Origin: Ectocarpus siliculosus
Taxonomy: Eukaryota; Sar; Phaeophyceae; Ectocarpales; Ectocarpaceae
Direction: 5' to 3'
NCBI GenBank assembly: GCA_000310025.1
Contig: FN648523.1
Location: 137,893-173,662 of the forward strand
DNA length: 35,770 bases
In this document: piece after piece, positions 5,434 to 27,389 of the stretch
How the letters are laid out: every line of letters begins with the position of its first letter
Numbering within the stretch: position 1 is the first letter of the stretch
Made by a program: the position numbers and the translations under genes
Notes under the pieces: generated by a model
What the model was told of the DNA's origin: nothing
Databases searched by the model: none
Seen by the model: the letters and a program-made list of their open reading frames with translations, nothing else

Positions 5434-8400
5434 ATGTCAGCTCCGCGTCGAAGCAGTCGCAGTGACCCCAGCGGCGGCATGAAGGACGGCAGCCGTGACG
5501 ATGTGTCGGGGGAGCAGCAGCAAAAAGAAGAATCAGTCACCAACATAAAGGTTGCTGTGAGATGTCGGCCGTTTTCGACAAGTGAGCGCTCGAGAGGAGA
5601 GCAGAGTTGCTTCCGAATCGAGCATGGGACCGCGTGCCTCGAAAACCCGGCAAACGCTAGCGATATCCAGAGGTGAGCACGCATACTCCGTACAATAACT
5701 CACCGATGCTGGCCCGCAATATTTCTTGGGGAGTTCTGCCTGACATGCCTGATATTCTTCGTTGTGGTAGAGGCGTGAGTTCGTTAGGGCGAAGAAAGAT
5801 GTGTGGTCCACACAGCAGTAGACAATCTACATAAAAAATAGATTGAACAGACTCGTCGAAACAAGAAACGACATGTTGGCGTCGAGGGTGCTTTACGAAA
5901 GGGTTGCGGAAGGCGTTGGAGAGCAGCCGTTGCCGAACAAATACACAGCCGGGCGAAGATGCAGGCGGCTATGCACACATCTCTAGAAACAATTGTGTAT
6001 TAGGAAGCAGAGCTAACATAGAGAGGACTTTCTTGGAACTCCTTGGCGTTGTGTTCGTCGTCCAACCGGACGAGCGCACGAGGGAGCGCAAATAGGCGCC
6101 GGCGGAAAGAAAACCAAGTACAGCGCTGCTTTCACGCTGTTTGTGCGCACAGACAACGTATTATTGCCGAACGTATTTTTCGACAATGGAAATGCCGTCA
6201 GCAACGTCAATATTTTAGAGTCAAAGGCAAAGCTTGCTACATGTAGGGCTTTCTTCCTTTCTTTTCCCCCCTTCCAAGAACGTGAGACACTATGCTGTTC
6301 TCGATTGCTACCCCACTATCCCGCAGATTCGGGTTCGACCTCATCTACGGCGGGGATTCTAAGCAAATATCCGTCTGGAAAGATGTCGGTGTTCCAGCCA
6401 TGGAGAAGGCCTTCGCAGGTTTGGCAAGGAGCAAACTCTCTAAAAACCTCTCGCCCACAACCCGCCAGAACTTGGTTGAAACATGAGATCTGAAGATGGA
6501 CCTCTGCTTGCTTTAAAGCACTTGTCTAGATTACTCCTTTTGGTCGAAGGAACTTGTCTGAAAACTGGTGCACGTGTTAAGTACGTTCTTCAGTAAAAAT
6601 GTGTCGGGGAAAGCTGTTGTTGATGTCGGGCTTCCACCACCAATCGGACGATACCCAGTGTGTCATCTCGAGCCAGTCGCCTAGGGGGTTCAGTTGGGAG
6701 CCTCGTAGCCTTCACACTCTCTATATAGCAGGATCGGATCTCTCTAGAGCAACAATAATGCTTAGCGCAGGCACTGCTGAAACCTCCTGTGGGTAAAAGT
6801 TGAAGTCAAGGACCGCAGCGAGAACGGTGGAGAAAGGGCACGAAATCTATGTAGTGTTGACGCTCTTCCTGTGTCACCCCGCAGACATGTACCGAAGGGA
6901 GTAACCTGGGGTCCACAATGGATGGTCCAACGAATACAACACCCACATCTAGCACGAGGATCGAAACGAGCCTCGCCGTCTTAGGCAGCAAGCTCTGGGG
7001 CCGAGACAATTGGCTTAGTTGGCGAGCGGTTGTAACGGCATCTCGGGCTGAACGCGGCGGCAGTCAGGTGTGTTCCGCTAAAACGCTCCCAACGCCATGC
7101 GATCCTGGTCCACGACGTCTTCGTGAGCCCTTTCTCTACTTTCAACCACGTCGAACCAACAGGCTTCAACACGACGATCTTCGCGTACGGGCAGACAGGC
7201 AGCGGAAAAACTTTCAGCATGCAGGGGGTGGGGGGTGGGAGCGGAGAGGGTGCGGGCATCATACCCCGCATGAACGAAGAGCTTTTCGCGCGGTGAGGTT
7301 CTGGCGCTCGGGCGCTGTGGTGTTGGAGTGGGTAAATGTCAACGCTGGCGAGGGTGGTAATGTTCGCTGGCTTTGTTGGTCGCCGTCGTACATGGTGATG
7401 CTAGCGAGCTTTGTTTTTCGTTTTCAGATCCCCGGCTGACCGGTAATACGGAAGGGAGTGTATGCCCCGTAGTACACCGCATGTACTTGACCAACTTGCG
7501 CCTTGCGTATGCATCGCTTGTCGTGATTGCCGCATACCAAGTGGGGTAGATCCCCTAACGTTGCAAACCGTGGCATGCAGACAGTTGAGTGATCCTGCCT
7601 TTCTCTCCCACCGGAGTTGCTGGTGTGTAATTTCACTAGCACTGTTTCCGGCTCGGCCGTTACATCCCAGATAAAGAGAGCTTCTCCGGACTGACATATG
7701 CGACTCTCTCACCTTCTTGAGCAAACCACGGACCACAACACTCTTCCATCCATTAGAGAATAGAAACAATTTGCTTCCCTGGAGGAACACTCGGCAGGCT
7801 GGCTGTCCCTGTTCCCATGACCGCTTTGGGGATTGTTGCTGAAACAAGACTCTCCCGGGAAGGCGGTCCTCAATCCGCTCCCAGCGATGCTCTTGTCGAC
7901 ACATGCCGTTGCCGCTGCTTTGGTGATTGAAAGCGGGTTCGGTGTTTACTCGCACCGCTTAGCGACGAACAGCAAGGGGTACAGCTGCTTCATCCACTCA
8001 GTACAAGGTACCTCGCACACCATGCCCAACTGTAACCTCTGCCCGCAGGGTGGCTCGTGAAAGAGAGGCTGACGCCAACAAGATGTTCCTCGTAACTTGC
8101 TCCTACTTCGAGATTTACAACGAGGTAAGCTCAAGACATTCCGAGGCGAAATAGACGACGACGGACGTCGATTCCAGGTCTACAGAGGAGAAAGAGGTGC
8201 ACGCCTCGGTAACCTAGCTTAGGGTTCGGGGGATCGTGTAAATTGCAGACCAGTAGGCGAGGAGTTTATTATTTTACGTTGTCGTCGCGTGCAATTTCTA
8301 ATAGATGAAGAGCATTTCATGTCTGAGATCACTGAATAGATGTTCTTCTTAACCCAAGCTCTCGTCTTGAGGAGGACATTAGGCCGGGTCCCTGGTAGAC

Positions 8401-11400
8401 CTCTGCAACCTTCAAGTGAGACATCACCCCTGCCCTGGGTTGATTTTAGACCTACCTCCGGGCGAGAACCCCAGCATGTGTACGGCGCCTCCACAACTTC
8501 CCGATTCACTCGTGCATTGGGCAGCTCCGAGTGCGTTACTTTATCTTATGGAAGAAAAACACCCGCTCACACCCTTGAAACCCCAGGGTTCCAGATACGT
8601 CGACTGTTGAAATGTGCGTTGAGGTTGCTTGCACCCCAAGGGACGTGCGAAGGCGGTTACGTCAGTGCGTAGGAGACCGGAGAAGTTATGGTGGCGTTGC
8701 CTCTGCCTCATTTGGGATTTTCATTGCCTGCCGGTAGCAACCGAGCCTAGCTCAGTTGCAGGGGCTTGAGGAGGTGGAAAGTGAGGGAGTGAGCCATGTG
8801 GGGCTCTCCGATCCTCTCTACGATATCGTCACCACAATTTCCAACCGATACGTGGCTCCTCTTCCATTTCACGAACCGACAAAAACATGTAACTCTTCGC
8901 GCGTGCTTCAAACGTGCTCCTGTACGTCGTTGCACCCTCTATACGTCGTTGTAAACATCGACAATATTTACAATATGTAATATTTATTCGCTCTGCATGA
9001 CCGTACGGTACATCCCACTGTGCAGTTGTGCTACTATATTTCAACATTCACCCTCGATGGGTGCTCGTGTTACGTACCTTCTACGTGCACACGTCTCTAT
9101 GCTAATGTAGTTCAACACGCCTCCATGATTGTTACGTGTGCCACCTCACGCTTCAACAACTACTCTTCTTTGCTGCCGTTCACCTCACGCTTCAACAACT
9201 GCTCTTCTTTGCTGCCGTTCTGTCCTATTGTCTTACGACAGTTGCTTCTTGGCCTTTTCCCAACGTGTGTTGTACAGTTCTCGCAGCCGGTTAAACCGTT
9301 CTCTCTAGTTTATCTCCGACCAGATGTGTACAAGCTCGCTCTGTACATCTATATCTGCTTCAAACCTTGAGTGACGTTGTCCAGATAGTATCTTGTCTAG
9401 TTCTTCCTGTGTTGTATTTTCTCTTTACGTTTCACGAGCTTGTTCTCTGATTTCTTCTTTCATGCCGCTCAAACCCCATTCAATACCTGTCGATGCCTTC
9501 ATACTTGCTACTGCTGCCGTCAGGTGATTTACGACCTCTTGGACCCGAATAACCGGAAGCGGAAAGGAGCGGGCCTGGAAATACGAGAACACGGGGTGCT
9601 GGGGATCTACGTCAAGGGATTGCAGGCACGGGGCGGTGTTGCAGTGTGCCGTAGAGTGACAAACGTCTTGGCAGAGGTTGAGAGGTCTTGACGTTCGACA
9701 GTTTTTTCAAGTTTCACGTACTTCGACCGCCTGTGCGATCGAGGCGTTGAGCAACACCAACGCTGCAACCGCGAAATAGAGGACAATCAGGTTGCCGCAC
9801 ACACAAGAATTCCATTCGTTCGGGTTCAAGACGGAGTACAGCTGTCGCTTGGTTTGTGCACTTGTCGCGACATCAGAGATTGATTGGCAGAGAACTGCGA
9901 AACGCTCTCATCGCCAAGAACGCGCTCTCATCGCCAAGAACGTGGCTGGCGTTGACTTTCTGCAGTCCGCAGTAGTCGTGGTTTGCTGATGAGAGTCTGT
10001 GGGAACGTTTTTTGCTGTTTTATGCATACTACCGTTCAGGAAATGGTGGTGACTTCGCCGGACAGCATGCAGCGACTGATCGACCAGGGCATGGCCAGCC
10101 GCACGGTGGGGAGCACGGCCATGAACGACACCAGCAGCCGGAGTCACAGCGTTTTCACCGTTAAGGTTAGTGGGGGAAATGTGTCGCGCCTCACCCGAGG
10201 CATTTACAGCAGCACCAAAAACCACGACGATAACAATCCCAACAACAATTGGCACAATATCGCCGTACTCTTGGGTCTATTTCTTGGTGGGGACATTGTG
10301 AGTGCCCTTTCGATAACTCTCCATGGTCGTCGGGTCTTAAACACCCTCCGGATTTGTCGAGGGGGTGCAAACACGGAGAGGGAATGCGTAACCGGACCGT
10401 ATCAAGTCCTCGTCTCACCTACACATCCCCCAAGTTATCCTACCGGCCATCCTGACCACGTGTTTGTTCAGCACGTTCTTTTCCCACTGTCACATCAACT
10501 CTTGGGCACCAATCAGGTGCGGTAGCGGCAAGCGTAAGACTTTAACATGTAGTGATAGCACATGCACCCGACCACAGGAAGAGAGAGGACGCGTTCACCG
10601 AGACTATATTTCTTTTGGCGATCGATCGATCTTATCGCCGTCAAGCTTTTCACGTCTTCTGCGGACGATATTCGCCCCCCTCCGGGGTCACGATCGCCTT
10701 GCTTAGTGCCTTGCGTCTGACACCGGTATTCGATTCGACACATCCGATGCCAACTGGCACAGCAGAAACGTAACATGACCCTGTGGGTCGCTACCAACAA
10801 AACTAATATCACAAAAGCAAACAAGAACCCTCGTGTCGGTGGTTCCCCAGGTCCATCAAAAAGATGCCACGGATGAGAGCAAGAGCACCTTCGCCAAGAT
10901 CAACCTCGTAGATCTTGCCGGGTCCGAACGCGCCAAGTCCACCGGGGCCACGGGCGCTCGGCTCAAGGAAGGAGCAAACATTAACAAGAGTCTCAGCAGG
11001 TTTGCTGGTTTTAGACTGTTGCAAGCCGGAGTGACGGGAGTACATGTACCATCGAGAAACCAACCCTACCACTCGTCTGGACCGAACAAGTGTCGGATGA
11101 CCTAAAATAATAACCCTCGTGGTGAAGATATTCGTGACTACATTTTCTTCCGAGAAAAGACACGTTTGTTTCTGTGCGTAGGTCTTGATACCTCCCCTCT
11201 TTCCCCCGCAACAATATCACGGTTGCGCGTGTGGGTGCGTGTGCATGGACACTAAACAGCCTGGGCAACGTCATCAACGCCCTCGTCGACGTCGCGAACG
11301 GAAAGAAGGGCGTATTCGTCCCCTACCGCAACTCCAAGCTGACGAGGGTGCTACAGGAGAGCCTGGGCGGGAATTCCCTCACGGCCATGCTCGCCGCTCT

Positions 11401-14400
11401 GTCACCGGCTGCCTGCAACTTCGAGGAAACCCTGAGCACTCTCAAGTACGCCAGCCGCGCCAAGAGCATCAAGGTACATGCAGACCATAGAGGAATGTAC
11501 CCCCCCCCCGCTAGATGTGCAGGACCGCGGTGGGCTAGTGCCGCCCTCGACCAATAGGCAATAAGCTCTCGTCAACACATTTCAGGAGGCCTCCGTACAT
11601 GCTTCCATGCATGCCATGCGTACGCATGTGCGCTCAAGGTGTACGCTGTGAGAAACCCGGCATGCATTTGGCGCGAGTCAGTAGAAAAGACTCGAGAGGA
11701 AAGCGAGGAGGCGCATCACACCGCGGCGAAAGTTCGGTATGCCCCCACCTAGAGCCCTATTTCCTCTACCCTCCTTGTCGTCTTACTCCCTTCCTCTCAC
11801 CAAGAAAGCACTTCGAACGCAACAGTTCCTCCGAGCAACCCACGCTTCCTTCTCCTCGCCCATTCCGCCGTAAAACGAAAACCAAAGGTGAACGCCGTGA
11901 AGAACGAGGAAGCGTCGCAGGTCAGCCGCCTGGAGGAGGAAGTGAGGGCTCTCAAGCAGAAACTGCTGGCTCACGAGCAGCAGACAGCCTCGATGGCTTC
12001 CCTGTCTTCCCCACCCCCATCCGCCCCGGCCGGCGGCAACGGCGGCGATAGCAACGACACGAGCGCGGCAACGGCGGGGGAGGGAGTGGCAGGGGGAAGC
12101 GACGGAGGAGACAGGTTGGATTCTGGTCTAAAGAGATCGCCTCCATTGATAGGTCATTGGGCTCGGTTAGGAGCGAGGGCAAGGGAATGCGTTAAGCTCG
12201 TGGTGGTGGGTTGGGTGCCCCTCTTGATGGGTGTGATGTGACACAGGGGAGATGTCTGAAGAAAGTGCCGTGCGAAAGGGCCGATGGAGACATGCTCGTT
12301 CTAGAAATCCGGGTTTGATCGCTGCAAAGGCTTAGAGCAGAGGGGGAAGAAACAAGGGTCGGTGTTGTTGCGGCTTGGGGTGATGATAGAGTTTCAAGCG
12401 GTTCCATTCTGTGACACGTCGGGAATGGTATCCGTCGGTGAAGGGTAAATAACATGTGAAATGCCGGCCTGCTAAACACGAGCTTGCTGCGTCTACAACG
12501 AACTAGTGGATTGGACGTGGCGGTCGCTCTTGGCGTTGATGCTCCATGAGTGCGTCTGAGCTACCTTCTGGCAAATCTGAGGAAAGCACCAGGTCTTTGA
12601 GTTGCAATCGCGCATACGTATCATGCATGTCGATGTCGCTGCCTTCCCGGGTCAGGTACAAGCAGCAAATTGCGGAGATGGAGGCGGCGATGAAGAGCAC
12701 CTGGGAGGAGAAGGCCAAACAGTCGGAGTCCAGTGAGCGGGAGCGACAGCGCCTGCAACAGCAGGCAATATGAAGTTCTCAGCAGTCCCTCTTTCTCTTT
12801 CAACTGAAATTTTTGCCGAAAACATCCTCCGAAGATACGGCAAAAAGTAGATTGACTCAGGATTGGGTGAATGACGACACCCGCAGCTGGAAGCTAACGT
12901 AAGCGAGCGCATCAGCCGCTCTTGTGTTCTGTTGTTCGGTTTACTTCTGTTTTTTTCGTTTGGTGCTGACGTCTACCGCAGGGAAGATTGTGCGAAAAAA
13001 AGATATGTCTTTATTTTCGTACAGAAGGGCCCTACGAGAGACAGCGACGCCTGCAGCTGGTAGCATCGTATCATTGATACGGACGAATCTGTCTTCTTTG
13101 CCTTGCACTATCTCAAGAATGTTGATCTTCGGGACTACGATGTTCCCCTACGTTCCACCATCCTTTTCACCGAAAACATCAGCTTGACGAAGAGGCGCGG
13201 CGCGAAGAAAGGGAGCGCAAGAAACGGTGGCGCGCTTTGGAAGACAAGGTGCTGAAGCCGAAAAGAAACCACAGCAGTAGCCACAATAAGAAAAACTTTG
13301 TACTTTTGACAGCTGTACGGCTTGACACTTCCTCCAGTCATGTAGTTCGACATGTATGCGATGGGGTCGGGGGATAGAGTGTGCCAATCTACAAAATAAC
13401 GGTGGGATATTGCGCTGGTCGGAGGATGCGTTGAAGATAAAACCTTCGATAGCTGGTCATCAGTTATCTGTCTCGTCACCCCAGCTCATTTAGGCAGCGG
13501 CGATGGCTCCGTGGTGGCGGTGGTGACCTCGTTGAGTAGCCTCTGCCCGTTGATGACACGCTTTCGTTGACAACGCTGTTCGCTACCAGGAGTCACAAGT
13601 GCTACAAAAAAAATCCTTTCATCTTTGTTTACCTTGCCAGACGATCACCGTGAGAGACTGTAAAGCGATGATTTCCTTCCTTTTTCTATTTGCTCATTTT
13701 GAGATACATATTTCATCGCATGTGTCAGGGGGATCTCGAACTGTCGATCAGGGAAGCCTCGGAGGTCGCGCTGCCCACGCTGCCTTCGAGAGACTGGCTG
13801 CGGCAGGTGAGTGCTGGGTCCGTTGTTGTTCTTGCTATCGCTGTTGGCGTTTTCATAGGGCGTAACACTGCTCCGATTCTACCCAACAGCTTTGGCATAC
13901 TATTTGGTGCGTTTCCTGGAAAACTTCAGTTGCTACCCCTGCCGCATGGGCGACTTCAAGCCCAAGATCTCGACGTATGTCTTTTCCTTCCCTGCAGCAT
14001 GGACGCATGGCCCTACGCTTCCGATCCTGCACACCTGAGACTCCCAACATTTTTCTGTGTCACCTCGAAATACCTGCCCTGACGTAAGCTGTGTTTTGCG
14101 CCTTCTCCTGATCACCAAGGTAAGGGCTTTGGTGGCCGCGGAGAACCGCGCCCGTGAAGAGGCCACCGTGTGCACGGTCTACAGAGAAGCCCTCGCGCTG
14201 GAGATCGACGGAGTGTTCTCCGGAGATCGTTCCTTGTCAGGGTCTTCGTTTTTCTCGGGGCTGTACGGTGAGTTGGCTCCCGTCAATGTTTCGGAGAATG
14301 CCCTCTCTTAGCTAGCCCCTGTGTTCTTGAGTTGGTCCTGAGCTTGTTTAATCCACTTCCCCGACATAAAGTAAAAATATTCCATGCAGTCGCGACTTGC

Positions 14401-17400
14401 GGAGGTAGATGGCGGACGTTCTCATGCTCCTGTGCAGCAAGTTTCAAGTACCAGAGTGCAAGCACACCGTACCCATTTGAATTTTTCACGTGCAGTGACC
14501 TGCGGACGTGAGGATAGAGAACACGTATCCTTGCGCACAGCTGGGATTGGGGGTCGGAGAAAGGGGAGCTCATCGGGAGCTCCTCGATTTGAGGCCGATA
14601 GGTCGACCAAAGACTGATGAACAAGGAGGGACAGCGTGTTCCAGGTTTTGCGTCATCGGATACTTTCTCTGTCTCCGGCGTGTTAGTCGACATTCGCTTG
14701 CTGACGGCTTCGGGGTCTTTGCTGAGCCCCACCAGCCTATATCTTGGCGAGGTATGCTTCCATGAGACACTTGTGCCGTCCCTTTACGGTAAGGGCTGGC
14801 TTTTCCTTCGGACTGCCTTGGTTCATCTTTCACCACGAGAGCATTTTCCTCAGGACATGGTCCTCGTGTATGTACTTTATTCATCTCGCGCAAGGAGGGA
14901 TTTGGCGAGAGGATGCTTTCCTCCTCGTCCCTCGGACACCCACACAACTGACAGTGCTGCCTGTTTTGTCTCCAACCATCCCTCACTGGCTTCAACTCTC
15001 TTGAACAAAACAGTCGTGCGGTTGGTGTGTTCTCTTTCACATCCAGGCGGCGACCCCGATGACGACCGCGCGTCGGTGGCATCGACAGCCTGCACCGCCG
15101 TCTCGGATCGCGAGGGCGTCCTCATCACCAGCGCCGCCGCCGCGGCCGGAGACGACGAGGGCACTCAACAAAACCAACCTCGAGGTGCACCACCTGGAGA
15201 TGGTAGTGGTGGTGGAGGTAGTCTCCCGAGACAAGCGGTCAAGGCTGCATCAAGCTACGACCCCGCCCTGTTGCGTCAGCTACAGGTGTGCCATTAGTCG
15301 AAACGAGACGCTTTCGCGCCCCCCTTCCTCCCGATCCCACCTCTCGGTGGCGAGAGAAAACCACTTTGATGTGCCCTGGCGTACGCAGGTCCTGTTCCTA
15401 TACTCGGACCTAAGCGCTCTGAGCGTAGGCAGTCACCTTGCGCTATCGACATGAGCTCGAGTCCCTCAGGCGTACGTTAAAGTGGTGTGGCAGTATTGGC
15501 AAGAGCCTCTAGCGACTTTTCCAGAAACCATCCTCCCATGGCTACAGCGCAATGCCAGCGAGGGAGCATTCTGCCTCATCCAGTACCCTGACCTTCCATT
15601 GTTGTGTCCATTATCCCCTTGGTCCTCGCCTCGCCCTCCTACGGAAGCCATCATCACATGACGAAAAACGTCTGGAGCGAAAGTCTACTCCTCTACTTTG
15701 AAAGATGCCGTTCGTTGTTGATACTCTGCACACAGAGTACCTGCCCTGCCCGCCTACGTTAACGCCTTTCTTTGGGTGTCTCAATACACCCAGGCACGAC
15801 TCACGAGCCTCAGAGACGCGCGAGAGAGGCTCCACGGTCCGCTCGCAAGAGCTGTCGAAGAGAGTTCTAAGAAGCTTTTGGAAAGTGTGGAGTCGTTCTC
15901 GGCGAAGTTTGCGGCCTCTCCGCACGAGCACATCGGCGGCGGCGTGCAACGGCTAGGAGGCGCAGAGGTGCGTGGCAAATCAAGCAAAGAAGCAGCGGGG
16001 TAGAATTTGTAGCGGTGGTTTTCGGGCTAGGTTTACAAGCCGTGAACGACTTTTTGTGGATCCTTTATATATCTTCTTTCTTCTGTTTGGGGATGGTTAA
16101 ATCAACTAGAAACAGGAAATACCGTATATTTCTGGAAGTATCCTCATTCGTAGTACGATATGCTTGAACAACGTTCAAAGTGGTTTTACCGATAGTTCCG
16201 TCCGCTCTTGCATGGCGTGACTCAAGGGCGGGGGCGAAAACCAGCGCGGAGAGACAACAACACCACATGTAGTAGTGAACGGCGTGGTGGACGTTAGCAG
16301 GGGATGTTGGAGTTTGTCCCAACTTGTGAGCGTTTATTTTCCACGCGTGCGCGCTTTCTCTACGTCGTTGGCCTTCCATACAAAGGGAGACAATCTACCA
16401 CACGCAGCCACGCTCTTTGTTTTTGTCCAAGGCCGCGCATGGAGTAGCGGCTGCGGCAAAGGTGTTGTTGTCCAAGTTAGGCGCTAACCTGTTGCCTTCA
16501 TCATCCGTGGTGACGATCGACCTGGTGACGTGCAGAGCAAAGGTGACGAAGGTGCGGCATCAGGGACAGCAGGACCAGGACCAGGAGCAAGAGGAGAGAC
16601 GGGGGAGGCTGCATCCCGAAGGTAAGACGCCGAGAACCGGTGACATCGAAGCCGGAATATCCCCGCACGTTCTGTCACGCGGGCTGAAGCAGCTGCTGCC
16701 GGCCAAGAGATCATGCGGAACGAGAACACGACGCCGACTATGTTTGAGCCATTCTGAGGCAGAACGCCTCCCCAATATACTTACGAATCGAACTCCTTCA
16801 GACCGCCTACCGTTTGTAGTAGCAACATCGTGCACCAACCGAGGGACGATTTGGAACTCTCTCTCGTTCTTCCGCTTGTTCTTAGCCTCTTGTGCGTCGA
16901 CAACAATGGTGACACAACGCGCTTGGGTTTCCAGCCCACGCGCCTCCCACAACCCCTCACATCGCCTGGACCCTGCAAGTACCATGTCTTAAGATGGTCG
17001 CCCGTGAGCGTTGCGTTCCGGCGACAAAGAAAAAAACGCCCCCATACTACACAGGTGGTATCCATAGAACCGCACCACCACATCGTCCGTACAGGACCTC
17101 TTTGTACCGTATCACATTTAATGTAGATTCCGTGGAAACGAGAGGAACGCCGGTGAATATGCGCCTTCATGCTCTTGTCTCAACAGCGGGTATCGTCCTC
17201 ACAACGTGACAATAATGAAATGATGCATTCGATACATCAGGGCGGAGGCCAGGAAGAGCGAGGGAGTCCGCGCGCTGGCCTTGATCCGTCGGCAGGTCGT
17301 CGCCCGTGGCCGCCAGACTCGGCAGCAACGGGGCTCTGGTACTGTGACCAGCGTCAACGGCGAAGCGGCGCTAGACGCTGCCGGGAAACCAATAGCCGCA

Positions 17401-20400
17401 GCCATCGCAGCAGCAGAAGAAGTAGCAGCAGCGGGAGAAGCGGTAGCAAGAGAGGCCAAAGAAGGGAAATGGAGAACGAGGCCGGCTAATGGAGCACCAG
17501 GAAGAACCGGAGGAGGAATAGGAGCTGAGGCAGAAGCAGCAGCGTCGATGGCTGCGACAGTCGGGAACACTCTACCCGCAAGAGCCGCAGACGCGGAGGC
17601 GCTCTGCCCCGCCGCTTTAGTCATCGCGAGAGCGGTGGAGGCCGTACTGTGCGGTACCACCGCAAGTTTCGCGGGCACCGACGGTGACAGCGGCGGTGGC
17701 GAAAGCGAAGGGCGAGGCGGACTCAACAGTCCAGAAACAGCAGCACCACCATCAGCAACGGCGAAGCTAGTGGCGACAAATGTTGCCGGCGAAGAGAAAC
17801 GCGAAGAGGTTGAGATGGTCGCCGATGGGGAAGACGGGAGTCAGGCGGAGCGAAAGCAGTATCGCGAAACTCTGGAGGGGCTGGGTAAAGCTCTTGGAAC
17901 CCTCCGGAAGGCGCTCGAAGCTGCAGCGGGGCATGACAAGCCCTCCCTTGCAATCTCCTCCGCGTCAGCAGATGAGCCTGCCGGGGTCGACAGAGTTTCC
18001 AGGACGCAGGGGCCTTCCAATGATCAAGCTGGCGGCGGCAGTACCGGTGGTGATGGACGCAACGTCACGGAAGGAGGGGCAAGGGCAGTGGGTCTGCCGC
18101 AGCTGGAAGTCCTGCCCCCTTCGTCGCAGTGGCGCTTTCGGTGCTCCTCGGGGGGGAGCGCGGCGAGCGAGGACGAGAACCTTCACCGGCTGCAAGAACG
18201 GGAGGATAAGGAGGTGACAGTTGTCAGACTTTTTCCAGAGCTTTTCCCGCAGAGAGAGAGAGAGAGAGAGTGACGAGCGTCGTGTGGAGAATGGCAGGTA
18301 GAAAGGGAAGTGGTTGGGGGCTATTGATTCTCTCGCCGGCACTTGGATTGACCCCCCCGCCCCGAGAGGTGGCGAAGCGAAACCTGGCGCATAGGGGTAA
18401 GGGGGGCATTCAAAGCGCAGGGTGGAAGGGGCAGAGGAGGCGGCAAAATGTGTACCATGCAATAGACGTGGAACGAGAGAATAGGTCCTTCGGCTCGCGT
18501 GGTGGGTAAGCAGGGAAAGAGAGCTATGCATATTTTGGGAAAATACTAAAACGGTGCTCTTTTTTCGTTGCATCGGGTTATCCAGCCTACTATAATTGTC
18601 ATACGCCTATATCGAAGTAACAATGTCCACTAGGCGCGTTACCAACAATCTCCCAACTAAAACGTCCCTCTGGAAACCTTTACGCCGTGTACTATGCGGC
18701 GAAAGGACAGCAATTGTTGCTGCTTCACGTGGGAGCCGGCGGCGGCTGGGGAAGATGATGGGAGGCAGCTTCGTGCTTTGAGTGGCGGCTCCTCAGATGG
18801 GGGTTCCTCCCTTGCCTCATCTCGCTGCTGGGTGGAGCTGGACTTCGGGAAATCGGTCACCGTCAAGGGGTTGACTATTGAACCGCTGGCTAACCAACCA
18901 AGTGGTGAGAACATCGGGTACATGTATGGGATTGTAGGGGGGGGAGGCAGAGACAGAGATCAGAAAGAGAGATTTTATTCGAAACCGTTTTCACACCATG
19001 GCCGCAAAGAAAGAAGGTGTACTCAGCATTACTGTCGGTGGTCGAGCTCCAACCCACTCCCCATGGTATTGATTGTACGGGAGGGCCGTTGCGGCATGTT
19101 GGCAATGTTCACTGTGGCATATGTCCTGTTCCCGAACTCTTTCGACATCGATCGGCCCACGGATGGCCAATCAAGAGACAGGCCTCATCCTTGAGGCGAT
19201 TTGGTGGACTAATCCGCGTCCCCTCTCTGCCCCGCGAGTTACTAGATGGCATCAACAATCCCCTAAATGCTATGCCCTGACGCTCTGACCATGACTAAAA
19301 CAAGACGAACGCCTTCTTCCGTTTCAATTGGCGCTCGTATTGCTCAGAGCACTTAGCGGCAGAGGTCGAAAAGGTGCCGCAACAACGTCGGACCCCGGCC
19401 TCTATCGCGGGGTTCGGCATAGAAGATGCGGATGGGTCCGTAGGAAGAACCGAGGTCATGGTTGGCGAGGTCATGGGGGGGTGGGGTGGGATATTGAAGA
19501 GCACTCCCCCTGCTAAGCTCTTGGCCCGACCGCCGGTCAGGTGAGGTCGGCAACTTTCAGTGAAAAAAACAAGGCTTAGCAGGAATCGTGACGTTGAAAA
19601 CCGAGGATAAAGCCCGTTTCCGTGTCGGTGGTTGTCTCCACTTCGAGGGAAGTGTACGAAGGCGACATGAGAAGCCCCGGTCCAGGCGTCCGTGTGATTG
19701 CGTCGTTGGTAGGTTTAAGGAATCCTCAGCCTACTTCCAACTCCGATGTGGGCTTAGTGGACACACACAACTTTTTGCTGTGATGACAGACTATGCGTGA
19801 CCTTACTCGCAAGAGCCTCCCTCGGTCCACCTCGTCCCAACTCACGCGAGCTCACGACAATGTTCCTTCGTGTATACAAACTGTAGCCTGAGTAATGTTT
19901 GCTCCGGGTTATTCGTAGTCGCCTGCAACACGTCTGGAAAGAACGAGCTCGCAGACACACGCTGTGTAGTCGATCGTCCTGCTCAAGGCAAGACTATTTG
20001 AGAACGTGAACCCTTCCCTGCCCCCGCACTTTCACCGTGAAAGATTTCTGTACGATCTGTTCCGGGCTGTCGCGAAGGCCACCGGGTTTGGAGAAGACGA
20101 GGCTTGTGGCTCAAAGTGGGAGGACCTCTCGGGTATGTATCACGCTGTGCAGTTGGGGCTGAATGGTTGCCGATGAGAGTGAAGTGGTTGTGTAGCATTT
20201 GCGGGAAGGTGTGGGGGCAAGGAAGGGGTCGGCGTAGGGCCAGGATCAGCTGCAAGACACACCGAGCAGCATTGGCAAGAAAGAACACCCAAAATTATAT
20301 CAGGACTCTCAAAATGGGGCCTCCGAAGCTCCAAAAATGTTCCTAATCAGACCACAGGAAGGTCGCCACGATATGTGTCACCACACCACGTCATTCCTGT

Positions 20401-23400
20401 ACGAGTTGCGATGTCTCCGTGGGTGTGCGTCGGGTGATGCCGTGTCGTCGATATGGCCCCTCTATACCGAAGCTAGCATCATGATTGATCTTTGTCGAAA
20501 GACAATAGGCGGGCGAGTAGTCTATCAGTGTAGACCGGTTTGCTGATTTTGGACGCGCTGAAAAAGGGCATCGAGGGGACAGCGATAGGAGTCGCTATCC
20601 TAAAAGAGGAATCTGTCCCCCTTTCCCCGGTTTTAGTCTGAGCTTTCCTTAAACTTTATGGAAGTCGGCTTCCCTTAATTTTCAGTTTTGGAAGTCGAGG
20701 AAGATCTCACGGGCTCGCATGGGATCTCTAACGAACCTCGTGTGAATGAATGAAGCAATCAGGCTAATACGAGGGCCGACGGAACTAGCTCCACGAAGCT
20801 TGACGGTGAACCTTGTGGAAGTTTAGTCTACAACTTCCACCCGATTCCACGTAATTTGGCGCTAAGCATCAACCGAAATCCAGGAACTTCCTTTCAGAAT
20901 CCAGAAAGCCCAAAGTTGCTTGGGTTCGCCGTCGAAGGGGGAGGGCTTCGTTGGAATGCATGGTGATTGGCTAAGTATAAGTGCGTCGCGATGAACAGGC
21001 CGTCAGATTTGGTCAACGCTAGGCAGCAGGACCATCACAGGGCATCAGACGCCGAACGACGTGTCTACAATCCTACGCCACTCCTGTCATTAACCAATAC
21101 CCTCGTGAAAGTGGTAAAGCCAAAGAAAATGTCCTGGTAGTTGGTAGAGTATGGCATCCATCGCAGCTAAAGCTTTGTCGACTTAAGGGGAACCGTAGAA
21201 GGCTTAGACGTGCATGAAAACTCATGACAGTGGTGCCGTCGAAGCTGCCGCGACTACCCAGGCAGTTGTCACGCAAGTAATAAAGTGAGGAAAATGTTGA
21301 AGCAGGCTGTGCACCCGTGAACCGGAGTCATCCCTGGCGAAAAGAGAAGAAAACACAACCCCGACCCGCCCGAACACTACACGCCGCAGGCAAGAAGGAC
21401 AAGATGCGGTTTATGGAGGGCATGATCCAGCTGGTGGCCGAAAGCTTGGGGCTAGAAAATCGTCCCGCGAAGGGGTCCGACATCGTTGTCGGGCAAGAGT
21501 GCGATGCCACCAACAGGTTTCTCCAGCTGCTAGCTCTAGCCGCACGCCTTCACCAAAACCGCGAGGAGCAGCGGGGGCATGAGCATCGTGGCATCGATCA
21601 CACCAACGACGACTCGCGGTGGCAGCCGAGTCGGGCCAAGCACCTGACTAAAGAAGCAGCAGCGGCTGCGGTCGTCGCCACGAGTTTTGACGGAGTTTCG
21701 TGGGAGGAAGCGACCTTTGTAGCGTTCGAAGAGGATGGAGATGACATAGCCGGCCATATCGATAACGGTGTCGTCAAAGACTCTCTTCACACTCTCACGC
21801 TGAGACTCGCCCGGGCAGCAGGGGTGAGGTGTCGCCACCTCCGGCTGTCGTGGCCCGCCAAACCAGCCAGCAGCAGCGACGGCAGCAGCGACAACGACGC
21901 CGATACCACCAACACCCCTACCTCGCCCGACCAAGCCAGCGACACAGCAGCAAGCATAACCCATGCCGCGCCAGCTTTCGACCCTGGTGCATCCGCTCCT
22001 GATCACGTCCGGGGCGGTTACCGTCCCGATGCCGGACAGCTGTTTTTGGGGGTAAAGGCGTTTCGTGTTAGGGTTGTGGGGGAGGGGGTGGATGGAGGGA
22101 CCGCCGCCAGGCGTGTTGGTAACGGGCGTGGGAGGGTCCTTGGTGAAGAGGTGGATGAGGAGGGAGGGGGGCACAGGTTTGCTGGCCGGGTGAAGGGCAG
22201 CCGCGAGGGTGAGGAGGAGGACAACATAACCAAAGACGCCACGAGCAAAGCAGGTGACGAAACTCAACCAAAAAACTAGAGGGGGGTGAGGAGGGTCTTA
22301 TACTCATAATTGCAAAAGATGGCGCAATGGAAGTTGGGGGGCTCGGGAAGTTCGTTGGTGGACACCAACCACTACTGGCTGTTGAGGGGCCGAGCGCGAT
22401 ATTTGTCAGCAAAACAAGTATTTCAGGTGGACTTGTGGGAACTTGGCGAAATACATTCATCACCCCAAATCTGGCAGAGACGGGCAGGTACCTGTTCGTC
22501 CCCGTCTGAAACGTTGAGGTTCATTGGGGCATTCCGTTGCCTCGCTACCGATATCTTCAGCTATATCCTCGTCTGGAAAGTTATCTGCTACTGCTGCAGA
22601 TATGATCTGACCTCTTCTCTAGCCTCTCCATCTCAATCTGTTCCGACCAGTATCATACCACAACATTTCATTTTCTTCAGGCATATTCCAGAAGATAGTG
22701 TTTCGGTCCCAAGAGGAGCCTAAAAGCCTCAATCCCCCGATGAACCCGCGCCACCAGAAGCGCAAGAACAAGCGGCGATGGGCTTGCTCTTGGAGGCGAT
22801 GCGCACGGCGGTCGACCGCCTGCTTCGGCAGTCTCTGGAGTGGGGGCGGATCGAGGCGGCCAATCAGGACAGGAGAACGGCGATGCGGACCAACAAGGTG
22901 TGGGCGCCAACCAATCCACCAACCGATGTCTATTGCCGCCAGTGTGGTTCGAGAGGAGTCGCCCCTTCAAATTATATACAACGACGTCAAGTGACTAATT
23001 GACGGTATAGGCATCATCTTGTTGAACATTACATTGGATTTGTTGACGGGGGGGGGGGGGGGGGGGGGGGTAGAACTGGTGGTTTAGAGACGGTTGCACC
23101 GCCGCGCGAAGCAACTAAAGGCGGGCGAGGTTCCACCCGCTCCTTCCCGGTTGTTCAACACTTCGATTCTTGACGGAGAGCTCGGTCAAGGGCGAAGGAG
23201 GTGAAGGAGAACATTCGGGGTTGTGCTGGGGACTGTGCGAATGCGAGGAGACTCATTGTGTTCCTTGGGTTAGGCCGGCCTGAACCTTCTTGAAGCAGAA
23301 GTGGCATGTCGCGTACTTCCGCATCGTATGCCGGAAGCGTTTTGGGCGATGGAATCAACCTATTGGGGGAACATACCTCCACTACAGGACCCGAAATACG

Positions 23401-26400
23401 CATTGGACGAAGCAACGATAGTTCCCGTGCTCCATGTAAGGTTGACCTCCCCAGGTATGGTGCTCATGCCAGGAACAGAGAGAAGGCGTTGTATACCCTT
23501 TAGGAAACGCCGACTAAATATGGTTAACAGCACATAATTGTGAGAGCGTCCCACAAGCGTTCGGCAAACGTCCGTATTTCTCAGATGGAGTCCTTGGAGA
23601 AACGCCTCAAGGCTTCTAATGAGGCGAAGTCGCGCCTGGCCAAGGACAAGAAATCGATAGCACTCAAGGCGACACGGACAGAAGGTGACACGAGCAACTC
23701 CAGGCCCAACATGGCGCTTGTGTTCGAACTCAGCAATATAAAATACCGTAGTATTTTCGACTGGTGTACGGTTAATCGACATGTACAGCAAGTGATACCT
23801 CAAGAGCGCACGCCCAGACAGCCGCGACCCTTGTAACGACGGCTGTACGCATGTCGTGCTTAGCAACGTGGATGTATAGTCGCAGGATGCACATGTGGTC
23901 GGCGAGCTGGACACATAAGGTCGACGTGTGTGCATCGCCAGAACGATGGCAATAGCGACGGTGTCGTAACCAACTCGTAGATAGCGTATCTCCTGAAGCG
24001 TGTTTCAAGTGGTTGACCTTGAGAAACCAATAAAGGCGGTCAGGTTCGAGGAAACCAATCTTCACGGTTCGGCCTCACCTCTAGGCTGAGAAGGGGAATA
24101 CTTCCGTCTAGCGTTGCTGCCGACAATCGACACTTCAATGCTTCAATGTGCACTCCGAAGAAACGCGCTAACCGTTCCTTTGTCTTCCCAACAAACCTAG
24201 CGTCTTCAGCGATATACACCTAGTATCGCCATGTTGAGCTCTGTCTCCCGCTCAACTACGCATTATTGCCGCCTTTCAGAGGAAAACTTGAGGCTCCAGG
24301 AGCAAGTCCTGAGAATGAGGGCGGACGTCGGCCGAGAGCGAGTGGAAAATACTTCACTCGCCGAAGGGCTGGCGCAGGCTGAAACAAGGGTAGGGGTCTT
24401 GTCTCTTGTTTTAGGTAGCCTTGGGCACCAAAAGTAGGTGTAGTTCTATAACCTGTGGACCATGTAGTTGCTGTTATCGTTCTGTTTGCCTTGACGCAAA
24501 AAAAAAGTTCAGACTTTCTCCAATTACCTTGGCAACATCCGTCGAGACCCAAAGAGGTTGTGCCCTCGACGCGTGCAGCCTCGATTTGCCCTTGGTGTGT
24601 CCGGCTCTAACAAATGTGCGCAGTACTGTAATTCATGTCTTAAACGAGGCCTGGACTTTGTTTTTCATGTTCCCACCTCCTACTACGGCCGATCGTTCTT
24701 CATCGGAGTTCTAGCTTTGTGTACACACGACCTTCTTGTTAGACCATTAGAGACCAATGTAGAATAAGTCTGTACACCCTGCTGGTTGTACGAGGTTTTG
24801 ATGCTAGCACTTGTGGAGAGGCGCTCTCCAGCAATAATGGACGGCTGGGTGTGGAGAAGTATCCTTTCTTGGATGCGCCCACCTGCAATCTTCTCGAGCA
24901 ACCAGCCCTATCTTTCGCCCAGGACGTCAGCAGTTTTCTTCAAAATCATCTCGCCACTAGTCCAACAATTTTCCAATCAGTAGACTGGACCGTACCTGAC
25001 AGCTTCGTACGGCCGATTTTCGACATAAATGTTCTCGCCGATATGGACACAACGTCATTGTCCCACACATGCATAGCTGCTGGTCGTCACCACGCCGTGA
25101 ATCAGTTCCAAAGCGGCTAGCATCCCCTATGAGTACCACTCAATTGCACAACAAGCACTTCCGGCGATTAACGACGTCGTGGATCCTCAGGTGGAGGAAG
25201 AAAAGTCACGGTTGAGAGAGCTAGAAGATCTCAAACGACACCTCGACAGCGAGACCGAGGACCTTCAAAATCAGGTAAATTACCTGTACACGAGGCTCCC
25301 ATATCTCTCTTTTCCCCTTCCGATCAGCACCAGAAAAGAGTCAAGATTTCCTAGTAGCAACTACTCTCGAAGATCTCTCTCTCTCTTTGATGGGAGATGC
25401 GGATCGGGTAGCACTGGTTTTAGCTCTTACGGTGATTTTTGGTGCACAGCTTGTGTGATGCCTTACTTCGTCCTTGAACGACTGGCCATGTCCCCCGGAA
25501 ACCTGCGGCCACCGCCATAGGTTGAGGTCTTGACCGAAGAGAGGGATGTCGCCCGGTCCCACGAGGAAGAGCTTTTTGCCAAGCTGACAGAGCGAACGGA
25601 AGACCTGGAGGCCCTGCAGGAGAGCTACGTCTCCCTCACCGACCGGTATGCTCTTGGGTCGGGACACGCTAGATGTTTCAGTTTCTCTCGTCGAACGTGG
25701 GCGTGCGATAGACCACGGTTTCGCAGCCGTTGTTCTGCCGTGCGTGTCGTAATAGATCGAGCTGGAAGCAACTTGGGGGGAAATAGATTTCTCTTCTTTC
25801 CCCTCGAACGATCACAACAACGCGATGACGCCTGGAAATCCATGGTTAGAGTGAGGGGACGGTTGTAGTGAGGATGTCACTGACGTGTTTGAATTTCAAA
25901 CGTACAGAGCGTTAACCCGCACTGCGTCCAGACAACTGTAGGTTTCCTTCGCACAACTCCTGTAACAAAAATATATGTGCATCATGAAGAATCTATAGGG
26001 GGTGGGAAAACGACAGTCCGTGTTTTTTCGCTAGTTTTTGATCTGAGTTTCGGTCCTGTAGAAAGAGGCCTCTACATCTAGATTAACCGGATGGCACCGC
26101 ACCCCAGGTGGAACGACTTCCAGGACGAGCACGACGAGGTGCTGGAGCAGCTCGAGAGCTTTAGGGCCACCTTCAAGCTTGCCAACAACAGCAGCAGCAG
26201 CAGCACGCCTCCTCCTCGTCCCGACACCACGGAAGACGTCGTGGAAGCGGCAGCACCGCTAGCATCATCAACCCCGCAAACCTCCAAAGCGGTACTCATG
26301 GACGGGAATAGCGCTGACGACAGCATCAGCAGCAGCGACCCGAGACAAAACGGCGAAGACCACGACGACTACAGCCGCCACCAACAGCTCGGGATAGGAG

Positions 26401-27389
26401 GATCTCCAGAAGGGGTCACCACCATTCGACCAATCTCCGAGCCAGAAGGCGGAGGCCGGAGCAGCCACGCTCCTCCCCGACCAGCAAGCGGTCGGAGCGC
26501 CGTGGCGTGCGTGGGAACCAACAGCAGCACCGTATCTCCGCGCGAGGAGCTGAAGCTACGTCTCGGCGGTGTGGGCGACAGCAGAAGTAGCCGTAGTGAC
26601 AACGCCGATGCGCCGTCGAAAGGGGGGAGAGATCGAAGCCCTCGCCGATCTTCCCCCTGTCGGCCGCCGTCCTTCGATTCAGCTGTTCCGTCTCCCCATC
26701 AAAGTTCCAGCCCTCGGATGTCGGGGTCGGCATGTGACGCTGAACTAGGGAGCGCTGGGGAAACCCAGGAGGCATCCGGGCTAAGGAGAAGGTGGAGCAC
26801 CGAAGACTGTGCTGGTTATCGCGGCGGTTTGGAACAAGGTGGGGATGCCGAAAGCGGCTGCGGAACGAACGGTGCTAGGCCACCCGCGACAGTTGTTGGT
26901 GGCGGCGGTGCAAATGATGGCGGCCGCGTCGACTTAGAGGAGCGAGTTCCGGGCCGCGGCGATGATTGCGGTAGCAGTGATGGGGAAAACGAATTCAAAT
27001 CGCGGCGGGGCGATCCTGGTGGGAAATCGGTATCCGCTACCGCTTCCGCTTGCACGGCGGGACGGAACCCCGGCATTCTTCAGGCGGGAGACTCAGGGGG
27101 CTATTACGAAGACGACTTCGACGAATTTGTGGAAGAGGGGTCCGAGGAAAGCGTGCAACAGACTCGCCAGACACGGCCCCAGAGCGCCGTGGGACATCAG
27201 AAAGAAGAGGTGTGTCCTTCGCGCGGCGCCAGTCGTGAGAAGCAAGAGCGAAACGTGAACGGTGGTGGCGGCAGCCAACCACCGGCCGAGATCGTGTATC
27301 GCCCCCCATCTAGCGGAAGCAGGGGTAAAGGGGAGAGACCCAAATCTGCTGCGAGACAGGGGAGATCGGCGAGCTTGAACGGGGCATAG
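5434..27389 (+). CDS. Large kinesin-motor protein with discoidin-like and IFT54/MIP-T3 CH-like segments
   Basis: Proposed exons: 5434-5672, 6327-6418, 7163-7292, 8049-8124, 9524-9625, 10040-10165, 10851-10999, 11260-11473, 11888-12114, 12656-12764, (12887-12898?), 13183-13248, 13729-13806, 13859-13974, 14125-14267, 15047-15285, 15794-15967, (16432-16461?), 16536-16621, 17241-18213, 18706-18904, 19348-19540, 19993-20132, 21390-22051, 22727-22897, 23585-23684, 24280-24389, 25191-25274, 25521-25645, 26108-27389. Without the two bracketed exons they sum to 6,405 nt, exactly 2,134 codons plus a TAG stop. The start is the first in-frame ATG after an upstream TGA at 5338. The product should be an ATP-driven microtubule motor carrying a long coiled-coil tail. 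The CH-like domain suggests a link to cilia or intraflagellar transport (inference). The motor is certain; the middle exons (12-14, 17, 20-22) have the least secure boundaries. The main alternative is two adjacent genes, breaking between 18213 and 19348. Confidence 0.85.
9142..9219. repeat. 39-base tandem duplication in kinesin intron 4
   Basis: Two adjacent 39-base copies beginning CACCTCACGCTTCAACAAC differ at a single base (A/G). They lie within the 1.4 kb intron between exons 4 and 5. Confidence 0.9.
9903..9942. repeat. 20-base tandem duplication in kinesin intron 5
   Basis: CGCTCTCATCGCCAAGAACG occurs twice in a row, identically, about 100 bases before the exon 6 acceptor. Confidence 0.9.
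11888..13806 (+). other. Neck and first coiled coil, exons 9-12
   Basis: Exon 9 (11888-12114) continues directly from the motor with [19 protein letters not shown], a charged helix, and then a Pro/Gly/Ser/Ala-rich linker. Exon 10 (12656-12764) encodes [20 protein letters not shown] and a Gln/Glu/Arg-rich helix. Exon 11 (13183-13248) is highly charged ([20 protein letters not shown]). Exon 12 (13729-13806) gives [16 protein letters not shown] and ends at a CAG|GTGAGT donor. The heptad-like Leu/charged pattern suggests a dimerising neck coil. Exon 10 can end in frame only at a GC donor (CAG|GCAATA), because the sequence reaches a stop three codons later and the upstream GT site gives a wrong phase. 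Confidence 0.75.
13859..15967 (+). other. Central tail, exons 13-16: helical segment, acidic linker, coiled coil
   Basis: Exon 13 (13859-13974) encodes [20 protein letters not shown] and a basic end. Its acceptor (TTCATAG) would make a 52-nt intron, the shortest in the model, so this start is uncertain. Exon 14 (14125-14267) begins [13 protein letters not shown]. Exon 15 (15047-15285) has an acidic DPDDDRAS start, an Ala run and a Gly/Gln linker, ending LLRQLQ. Exon 16 (15794-15967) continues exactly in phase with [17 protein letters not shown] and a coiled-coil segment ending GGAE. No known domain is recognised. Confidence 0.65.
16432..18213 (+). other. Ala/Gly/Ser-rich low-complexity region, exons 17-19
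   Basis: Exon 17 (16432-16461, [10 protein letters not shown]) is optional and phase-neutral. Exon 18 (16536-16621) is Gly/Ala/Pro-rich. Exon 19 (17241-18213) is unusually long at 973 nt. It begins with a basic helix ([18 protein letters not shown]), passes through Ala/Glu-rich helical repeats and Ser/Gly linkers, and ends [10 protein letters not shown] before a GTGACA donor. The frame stays open to a TGA at 18271-18273, past a GA repeat at about 18253-18270. If that donor is not used, the kinesin protein would end here. Most of this region is probably disordered or single-helix. Confidence 0.65.
18706..18904 (+). other. Discoidin (F5/8C)-like segment, exon 20
   Basis: The encoded stretch (residues about 1114-1180) contains [20 protein letters not shown]. 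This follows the core pattern of F5/8 type C (discoidin) domains: an aromatic, then V/I-x-V/L-D-L/F-G, and a following V-x-G-x-x-I strand. An upstream Cys/Trp-containing part (CCCFTWEP) could fill the usual position before it. Only about half of a standard 130-150 residue domain is visible, and the C-terminal half was not found. The exon ends at a strong donor (G|GTGAGA) in phase 1. Its acceptor (GCGAAAG) is weak. Such domains bind glycans or lipids outside cells, and related folds occur in ciliary proteins such as IFT25; the role here is unknown. Confidence 0.45.
20575..20620. repeat. Inverted repeat GGGGACAG...CTGTCCCC
   Basis: GGGGACAG at 20575-20582 pairs with CTGTCCCC at 20613-20620. A smaller GATAG/CTATC pair lies between them. 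It could fold into a nested hairpin in the intron RNA. Confidence 0.6.
20815..20840. repeat. Perfect 9-bp hairpin
   Basis: GTGGAAGTT (20815-20823) and AACTTCCAC (20832-20840) are exact reverse complements separated by 8 bases. Confidence 0.75.
22727..25645 (+). other. Long C-terminal coiled coil, exons 24-28
   Basis: Five short exons (22727-22897, 23585-23684, 24280-24389, 25191-25274, 25521-25645) join in phases 0,1,0,0,2. They encode a nearly continuous heptad-rich helix: [17 protein letters not shown], then [20 protein letters not shown], then [17 protein letters not shown], then [19 protein letters not shown], then [19 protein letters not shown]. The phase match across all junctions and the unbroken helical pattern make these exons secure. 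They should mediate dimerisation or partner binding. They do not resemble the C-terminal IFT20-binding coil of IFT54 closely enough to claim identity. Confidence 0.85.
23048..23070. repeat. Poly-G run
   Basis: A run of 23 G lies in the intron between exons 24 and 25. Its exact length is likely unreliable in the assembly. Confidence 0.9.
26108..27389 (+). other. Terminal exon 29: end of coiled coil and disordered acidic/Ser-rich tail
   Basis: The exon starts after ACCCCAG in phase 2, finishes the coiled coil ([20 protein letters not shown]), and then encodes about 390 residues rich in Ser, Gly, Arg and Pro with poly-Ser and acidic stretches. Near residue 2040 lies an acidic aromatic motif, [14 protein letters not shown], of a kind seen in several ciliary and microtubule-associated proteins. 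The C-terminus is basic ([15 protein letters not shown]) before the TAG at 27387-27389. The tail is likely unstructured and a phosphorylation target (inference). Confidence 0.85.

Follow-up and report, generated by a model that had tools for sequence, protein, structure and literature searches.

The IFT-B2 subunit IFT54 (TRAF3IP1, MIP-T3) of intraflagellar transport (IFT) carries a CH-like domain for which tubulin binding is reported, and the protein can occur along microtubules in the cytoplasm (PMC4617596). In another study IFT54 is proposed to recruit kinesin-II to IFT trains (PMC10191852); the contact with Kif3 has been assigned instead to IFT88/52/57/38 (PMC7561706). Lineage-specific kinesin architectures are common, a comparative survey describing 105 of them in 45 eukaryotes, most confined to one organism (PMC2867816). 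Plant kinesin-14 KCH is a kinesin with a CH domain. Here we describe a locus of the brown alga Ectocarpus siliculosus (contig FN648523.1 of assembly GCA_000310025.1, positions 137,893 to 173,662 of the forward strand; C97:137893-173662 in our numbering) in which a kinesin motor is followed, probably within one gene, by a CH domain of the IFT54 type. The window refers throughout to this whole stretch of 35,770 nucleotides.

Our preferred interpretation, to which we give a probability of roughly 0.6, is that the locus holds a single 29-exon gene (5434-27389) whose product is a kinesin of some 2186 residues: an N-terminal motor, a lengthy tail in which no domain was recognised, a divergent F5/8 type C-like beta-sandwich that encloses an IFT54-type NN-CH domain, a coiled-coil-like stretch and a disordered end. 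The + frames of the window were translated, open frames of at least 140 residues were listed on both strands, and the choice of exons was made manually, guided by open frames, homology and splice consensus. In the resulting model all exons lie on the + strand and can be joined in phase, giving 2186 residues with the sole stop at the end. This stop-free read-through is weaker evidence than it sounds, the splice sites having been selected among many GT/AG candidates. The features of the model are as follows.

5434-5672, 6327-6418, 7163-7292, 8049-8124, 9524-9625 (GC donor), 10040-10165, 10851-10999 and 11260-11473, + strand: kinesin motor domain, 8 exons (PF00225, KIF1A as best match, motifs).
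11888-12114, 12656-12764 (GC donor), 13183-13248, 13729-13806 and 13859-13974, + strand: first five neck/tail exons (in-phase hand model).
14125-14267, 14687-14788, 15047-15285, 15794-15967 and 16432-16551 (or to 16621), + strand: last five neck/tail exons (in-phase hand model).
17296-18213 (alternative start 17241), + strand: long Ala/Gly-rich tail exon (open frame 17224-18270; donor score 4.2).
18214-18705, + strand: disputed gap, an intron if there is one gene, a 3' end plus promoter if there are two (stop 18271, ATG 18694).
18706-18904 (start 18797 under other splicing), + strand: N-terminal half of the divergent F5/8 type C-like domain (PF00754 match with the CH removed).
19348-19540, + strand: linker plus the N-terminal portion of the CH-like domain of IFT54/MIP-T3 type, including KLLARPPVR (PF10243; 5fmt, 8bd7, 2eqo, 5fmu).
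20044-20132, + strand: middle of the CH-like domain (PF10243).
21390-22208, + strand: remainder of the CH-like domain (up to about ALAA), a linker, and the C-terminal half of the F5/8 type C-like domain (PF10243, PF00754; donor 22208).
22758-22897, 23585-23684, 24280-24389, 25191-25274 and 25521-25645, + strand: coiled-coil-like exons (in-phase joins).
26108-27389, + strand: last exon, with the end of the coil, a Ser/Gly-rich tail and the stop at 27387-27389 (open frame; phase 2 needed and supplied).

Both the motor and the CH domain are present and intact at the level of sequence. The exons from 5434 to 11473 encode a kinesin domain that matches PF00225 over its full length (all 327 positions, E 1.4e-108) and in which the P-loop, switch I and switch II expected of the kinesin superfamily are all found, the motor motifs, DLAGSE among them, standing at residues 120, 242 and 276 of the joined model. 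The intact motor described by an earlier, sequence-only annotation of this DNA (hereafter the first-pass annotation) is thereby confirmed. When solved structures were searched with the motor, KIF1A scored highest (307 bits), followed by OSM-3 (290), KIF14 (284) and KIF15 (281). The motor is N-terminal, as in kinesin-3, and by this ranking, with its small margin, it appears kinesin-3-like. Unlike in kinesin-3, no FHA domain was found after the motor: profile scans of residues 1-622 and 1-1787 of the model gave no match at E up to 10, within the limits of HMMER filters that drop most matches above about 0.1. The K-loop usual in kinesin-3 was not spotted by eye in the motor. The same genome is rich in kinesins, with at least 138 exon-level matches in searches that covered 189.5 Mb in 492 contigs.

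The CH domain is encoded by exons 19348-19540 and 20044-20132 and by the exon that begins at 21390. Its match to PF10243 (MIP-T3) has an E value of 5.9e-14 and a score of 52.4 bits against a cut-off of 23.4, and spans residues 1262-1352 of the joined model, with the CH motif running from residue 1239; the first-pass annotation had placed the MIP-T3 match at about residues 1215-1345, and its assignment to the IFT54/TRAF3IP1 type holds. Only four solved structures matched with E below 1: 5fmt (2.5e-11), 8bd7 (2e-10), 2eqo (1.9e-9) and 5fmu (5.2e-9). Of these, 8bd7 is Chlamydomonas IFT54, 2eqo and 5fmu are TRAF3IP1, and 5fmt, labelled just as a flagellar associated protein, is presumably Chlamydomonas IFT54 too, given its near-identical alignment to 8bd7. 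Judged by profile and by structure search, the domain is of the IFT54 type, and it differs from the CH of KCH, which is described as being of an actin-binding type, and here it comes after an N-terminal motor.

The rest of IFT54 was not recognised. Whereas IFT54 carries its CH at the N terminus, the window CH is internal in both hand-made gene models, lying about 100 residues from the start even if a separate gene begins at the ATG at 18694. The C-terminal, IFT20-binding coil of IFT54 (PF17749, MIP-T3_C) gave no match in single exons of the window, in a 186-residue coil construct made without exon 25191-25274, or in residues 1-1787 of the model, a scan that ended 399 residues before the C terminus. 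These negatives are to be read beside the canonical IFT54 gene of this genome, on contig C26, which itself matches that profile weakly by single exons (E 0.19 and 0.08, both sub-threshold, at C26:325170-325482, about 6 kb downstream of its CH exons); because these matches are sub-threshold, the C-terminal coil of the C26 gene may have diverged or may be distributed among small exons. With the CH as the only part of IFT54 recognisable in the window protein, a motor joined to an IFT adaptor, as the first-pass annotation put it, is an overstatement.

A genome-wide search with PF10243 returned two exon matches, both at C26:317785-319433 and ordered as in one canonical gene. A separate canonical IFT54 gene, which the first-pass annotation had proposed to look for, thus exists as far as its CH exons are concerned, and the window gene is therefore not IFT54 itself, its CH being an extra domain of that type. 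The window CH is absent from the genome-wide list; its sequence is spread across three exons, which that search scores singly. A search of the genome with the tail gave five matches, four in the window and one, weak, in the C26 gene (E 0.28).

On both sides the CH is flanked by pieces resembling the F5/8 type C (discoidin) domain, including the stretches WVELDFGK and DGVSWE. Once the CH is excised, PF00754 matches across the join in all three variants made (E 6.9e-4, 8.2e-4 and 7.1e-4; these are variants of one join and not independent), and the joined piece covers positions 32-83 of the 127 of the profile. With the CH retained, PF00754 gave no match at E up to 10; none was obtained either from the two halves tested singly (0/2) or in 13 constructs that combined the first half with a shuffled second half (3 + 10 tries). 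In a search of solved structures the joined piece matched factor VIII best, also across the join, at an E value of 1.4 that is not significant alone. These observations support the view that the CH is set inside a divergent discoidin-like domain. Unlike ordinary F5/8 type C domains, the candidate stays under the family cut-off (20 bits against 28.2) and is apparently split by the CH; moreover, the cut was placed after the motifs had been spotted. Because of the score and of motifs noticed before testing, we rate the nesting as supported and not as demonstrated. The point of insertion would correspond to a loop that contributes to membrane binding by the factor VIII C2 domain. AlphaFold2 was applied to one contiguous exon stretch (21392-22273, which is not the spliced protein) and gave a mean per-residue confidence (pLDDT) of 37.5. 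At least four further F5/8 type C matches were found in the genome; a comparison by eye placed none of them close to the window or to any of the kinesins listed, both lists being lower bounds. Neither the enclosing domain nor the exons after 22051 had figured in the first-pass annotation.

That motor and CH lie in one chain is the likelier reading, and it turns on a putative joint, 18213 to 18706. The donor is fair (4.2), and reading beyond it leads to a stop at 18271. The gap measures 492 bp if it is an intron (18214-18705), or about 420 bp from that stop to the ATG at 18694. Typical values for Ectocarpus, given in PMC6337836, are a median intron of 531 bp, a mean 3' untranslated region (UTR) of 845 bp and a median intergenic distance of 2529 bp; because the gap is short beside the latter two, an intron is favoured. 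A second way to join the same gene, from 18049 (2.7) to 18797 (2.4), is also in phase, with a summed score of 5.1 against 3.4 for 18213-18706; it would shorten the tail exon by 164 bases and deprive the next exon of its first 91.

Several findings weigh against a single gene. The acceptor at 18706 is poor (-0.8), 47.6% of the AG sites in the window equalling or beating it; other acceptors in phase with donor 18213 score lower still, and the better AG sites at 18783 (-0.1) and 18797 (2.4) are out of phase with that donor. Coding scores, derived from a small training set, are negative for the long tail exon (-25), for 21390-22208 (-20) and for 26108-27386 (-38). A home-made semi-Markov gene finder missed the hand model and over-predicted tiny exons (105 at the first setting, 21 at the last), and its two tightest settings omitted the CH exons. 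It had been trained on 1669 codons from 18 of 21 AAA-domain loci (L032, L039 and L044 left aside) together with the window motor exons, a partly circular choice, with a background from which stretches of at least 1000 N were dropped (2/20). Finally, the proposed linkage of motor and CH comes from the genomic sequence of one species.

The strongest competitor, which we consider doubtful though serious, is a pair of tandem genes, in which the kinesin terminates at the 18271 stop and a second protein, with the F5/8 type C-like domain, the CH and the coil, begins at the ATG at 18694. In that case the second protein would be a new relative of IFT54, and the kinesin would be of an ordinary type with no known domain in its tail. 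This ATG is in frame and stands 12 bases ahead of the weak acceptor, the stop is met when donor 18213 is read past, and 45 residues would precede WVELDF, enough to accommodate the beginning of an F5/8 type C domain. The sequence CTATAATT at 18590, about 100 bp 5' of the ATG, is not by itself evidence of a promoter. Two tandem genes would, however, have to fit the 3' UTR of one gene and the promoter and 5' UTR of the other into the approximately 420 bp between stop and ATG. The weak acceptor also has a parallel: among the seven acceptors whose positions follow from motor homology, that at 11260 (-0.5) likewise scores below zero and is nearly as weak. The odds of one gene and of two were weighed by judgement.

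Elsewhere in the single-gene model the joins are of uneven quality. GC donors appear to be required after 9625 (TTGCAG/GCACGG) and after 12764 (CAGCAG/GCAATA), and because both are a loose fit to the usual GC-donor form, small unrecognised exons or extensions may be present. The direct join from 16621 to 17241 is out of phase; that from 16551 to 17296 is in phase, with scores of 5.4 and 4.7. No Pfam family exceeded its cut-off in the neck/tail part (11888-16551) in a profile scan of the model. The one phase-consistent exon chain claimed by the first-pass annotation can be written, in 29 exons, but with hand-picked sites, two GC donors, the direct 16621-17241 join out of phase and a poor acceptor at 18706. 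Its single polypeptide likewise stands as the likelier reading, tempered by the in-frame ATG at 18694, which would permit a second gene.

From 18904 onward, each of the nine joins has GT-AG ends and keeps the phase; their donors rank in the top 3.9% of GT sites of the window and their acceptors in the top 20% of AG sites. The end at 22051 given by the first-pass annotation appears to be too early, as in-phase exons reach a stop at 27389. That the coil belongs to the same gene as the CH is supported by these joins. A division into three or more genes, with the coil after 22276 starting at an ATG at 22778, or into alternatively spliced isoforms of one locus, is very improbable: unspliced reading past donor 22208 does hit an in-frame stop at 22277, and the ATG lies behind an ordinary acceptor (22758; 2.1, top 15.6%), but the donor is strong (5.8, top 1.0% of GT sites), all later joins are in phase, and the gap from stop to ATG is just about 500 bp.

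The coil region of the single-gene model comprises 214 residues with no proline and 40% charged residues; its heptad score was matched by 25 of 500 shuffles, a weak test. Sub-threshold matches of the coil to HAUS1 (E 0.0034), SHE3 (0.013) and Cluap1 (1) were taken as general coil similarity. In the last exon (26108-27389) the Ser/Gly-rich stretch carries YYEDDFDEF and RPQSA/RPKSA, which resemble motifs of ciliary or centrosomal proteins.

If the locus is one gene, it would add a new architecture to those of kinesin tails, which are known to differ between lineages. We infer its working at every step, any flagellar role included. The coil would pair two chains and the motor would walk along microtubules, while the CH, if it behaves as in IFT54, would add a second contact with tubulin or a microtubule and the F5/8-type fold would offer a further surface for binding partners. 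Such a protein would act as a microtubule cross-linker, or as an adaptor-free carrier of tubulin or microtubule-based cargo. We tentatively propose, at somewhat less than even odds, that the kinesin carries its own adaptor. In this view a tubulin-binding CH of the IFT54 type is inserted into a loop of a discoidin-like domain of the tail, and one polypeptide could walk on microtubules while gripping tubulin, another microtubule or a ciliary partner, with no need of an IFT train. If this is true, the presence of such a CH within the tail of a motor would offer a natural experiment on the role of that domain, testable in the flagellated cells of brown algae; a domain nested inside a domain would also be unusual.

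The first-pass annotation knew of no described protein with this order of domains. Within the titles and abstract openings of the open-licence literature surveyed, no kinesin with an IFT54-type CH or with an F5/8 type C domain is reported, and the claim stands to that extent; its weight is lessened by how common lineage-specific kinesin tails are (PMC2867816). No relative was found in another species, the scan beyond the genome itself covering viral contigs, where a 162-residue query gave five stretches that matched a pattern and none that tblastn confirmed.

Some further results were set aside. The gene finder joined motor and coil in 8/8 settings, which we did not use as evidence owing to its false small exons and to stops at split codons in some parses; training it on random long open reading frames was discarded on inspection. 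A sigma-70 promoter scan has no bearing on a eukaryote. Upstream of the gene, the window contains a TGTC tandem array of 25.5 copies at 1748-1849.

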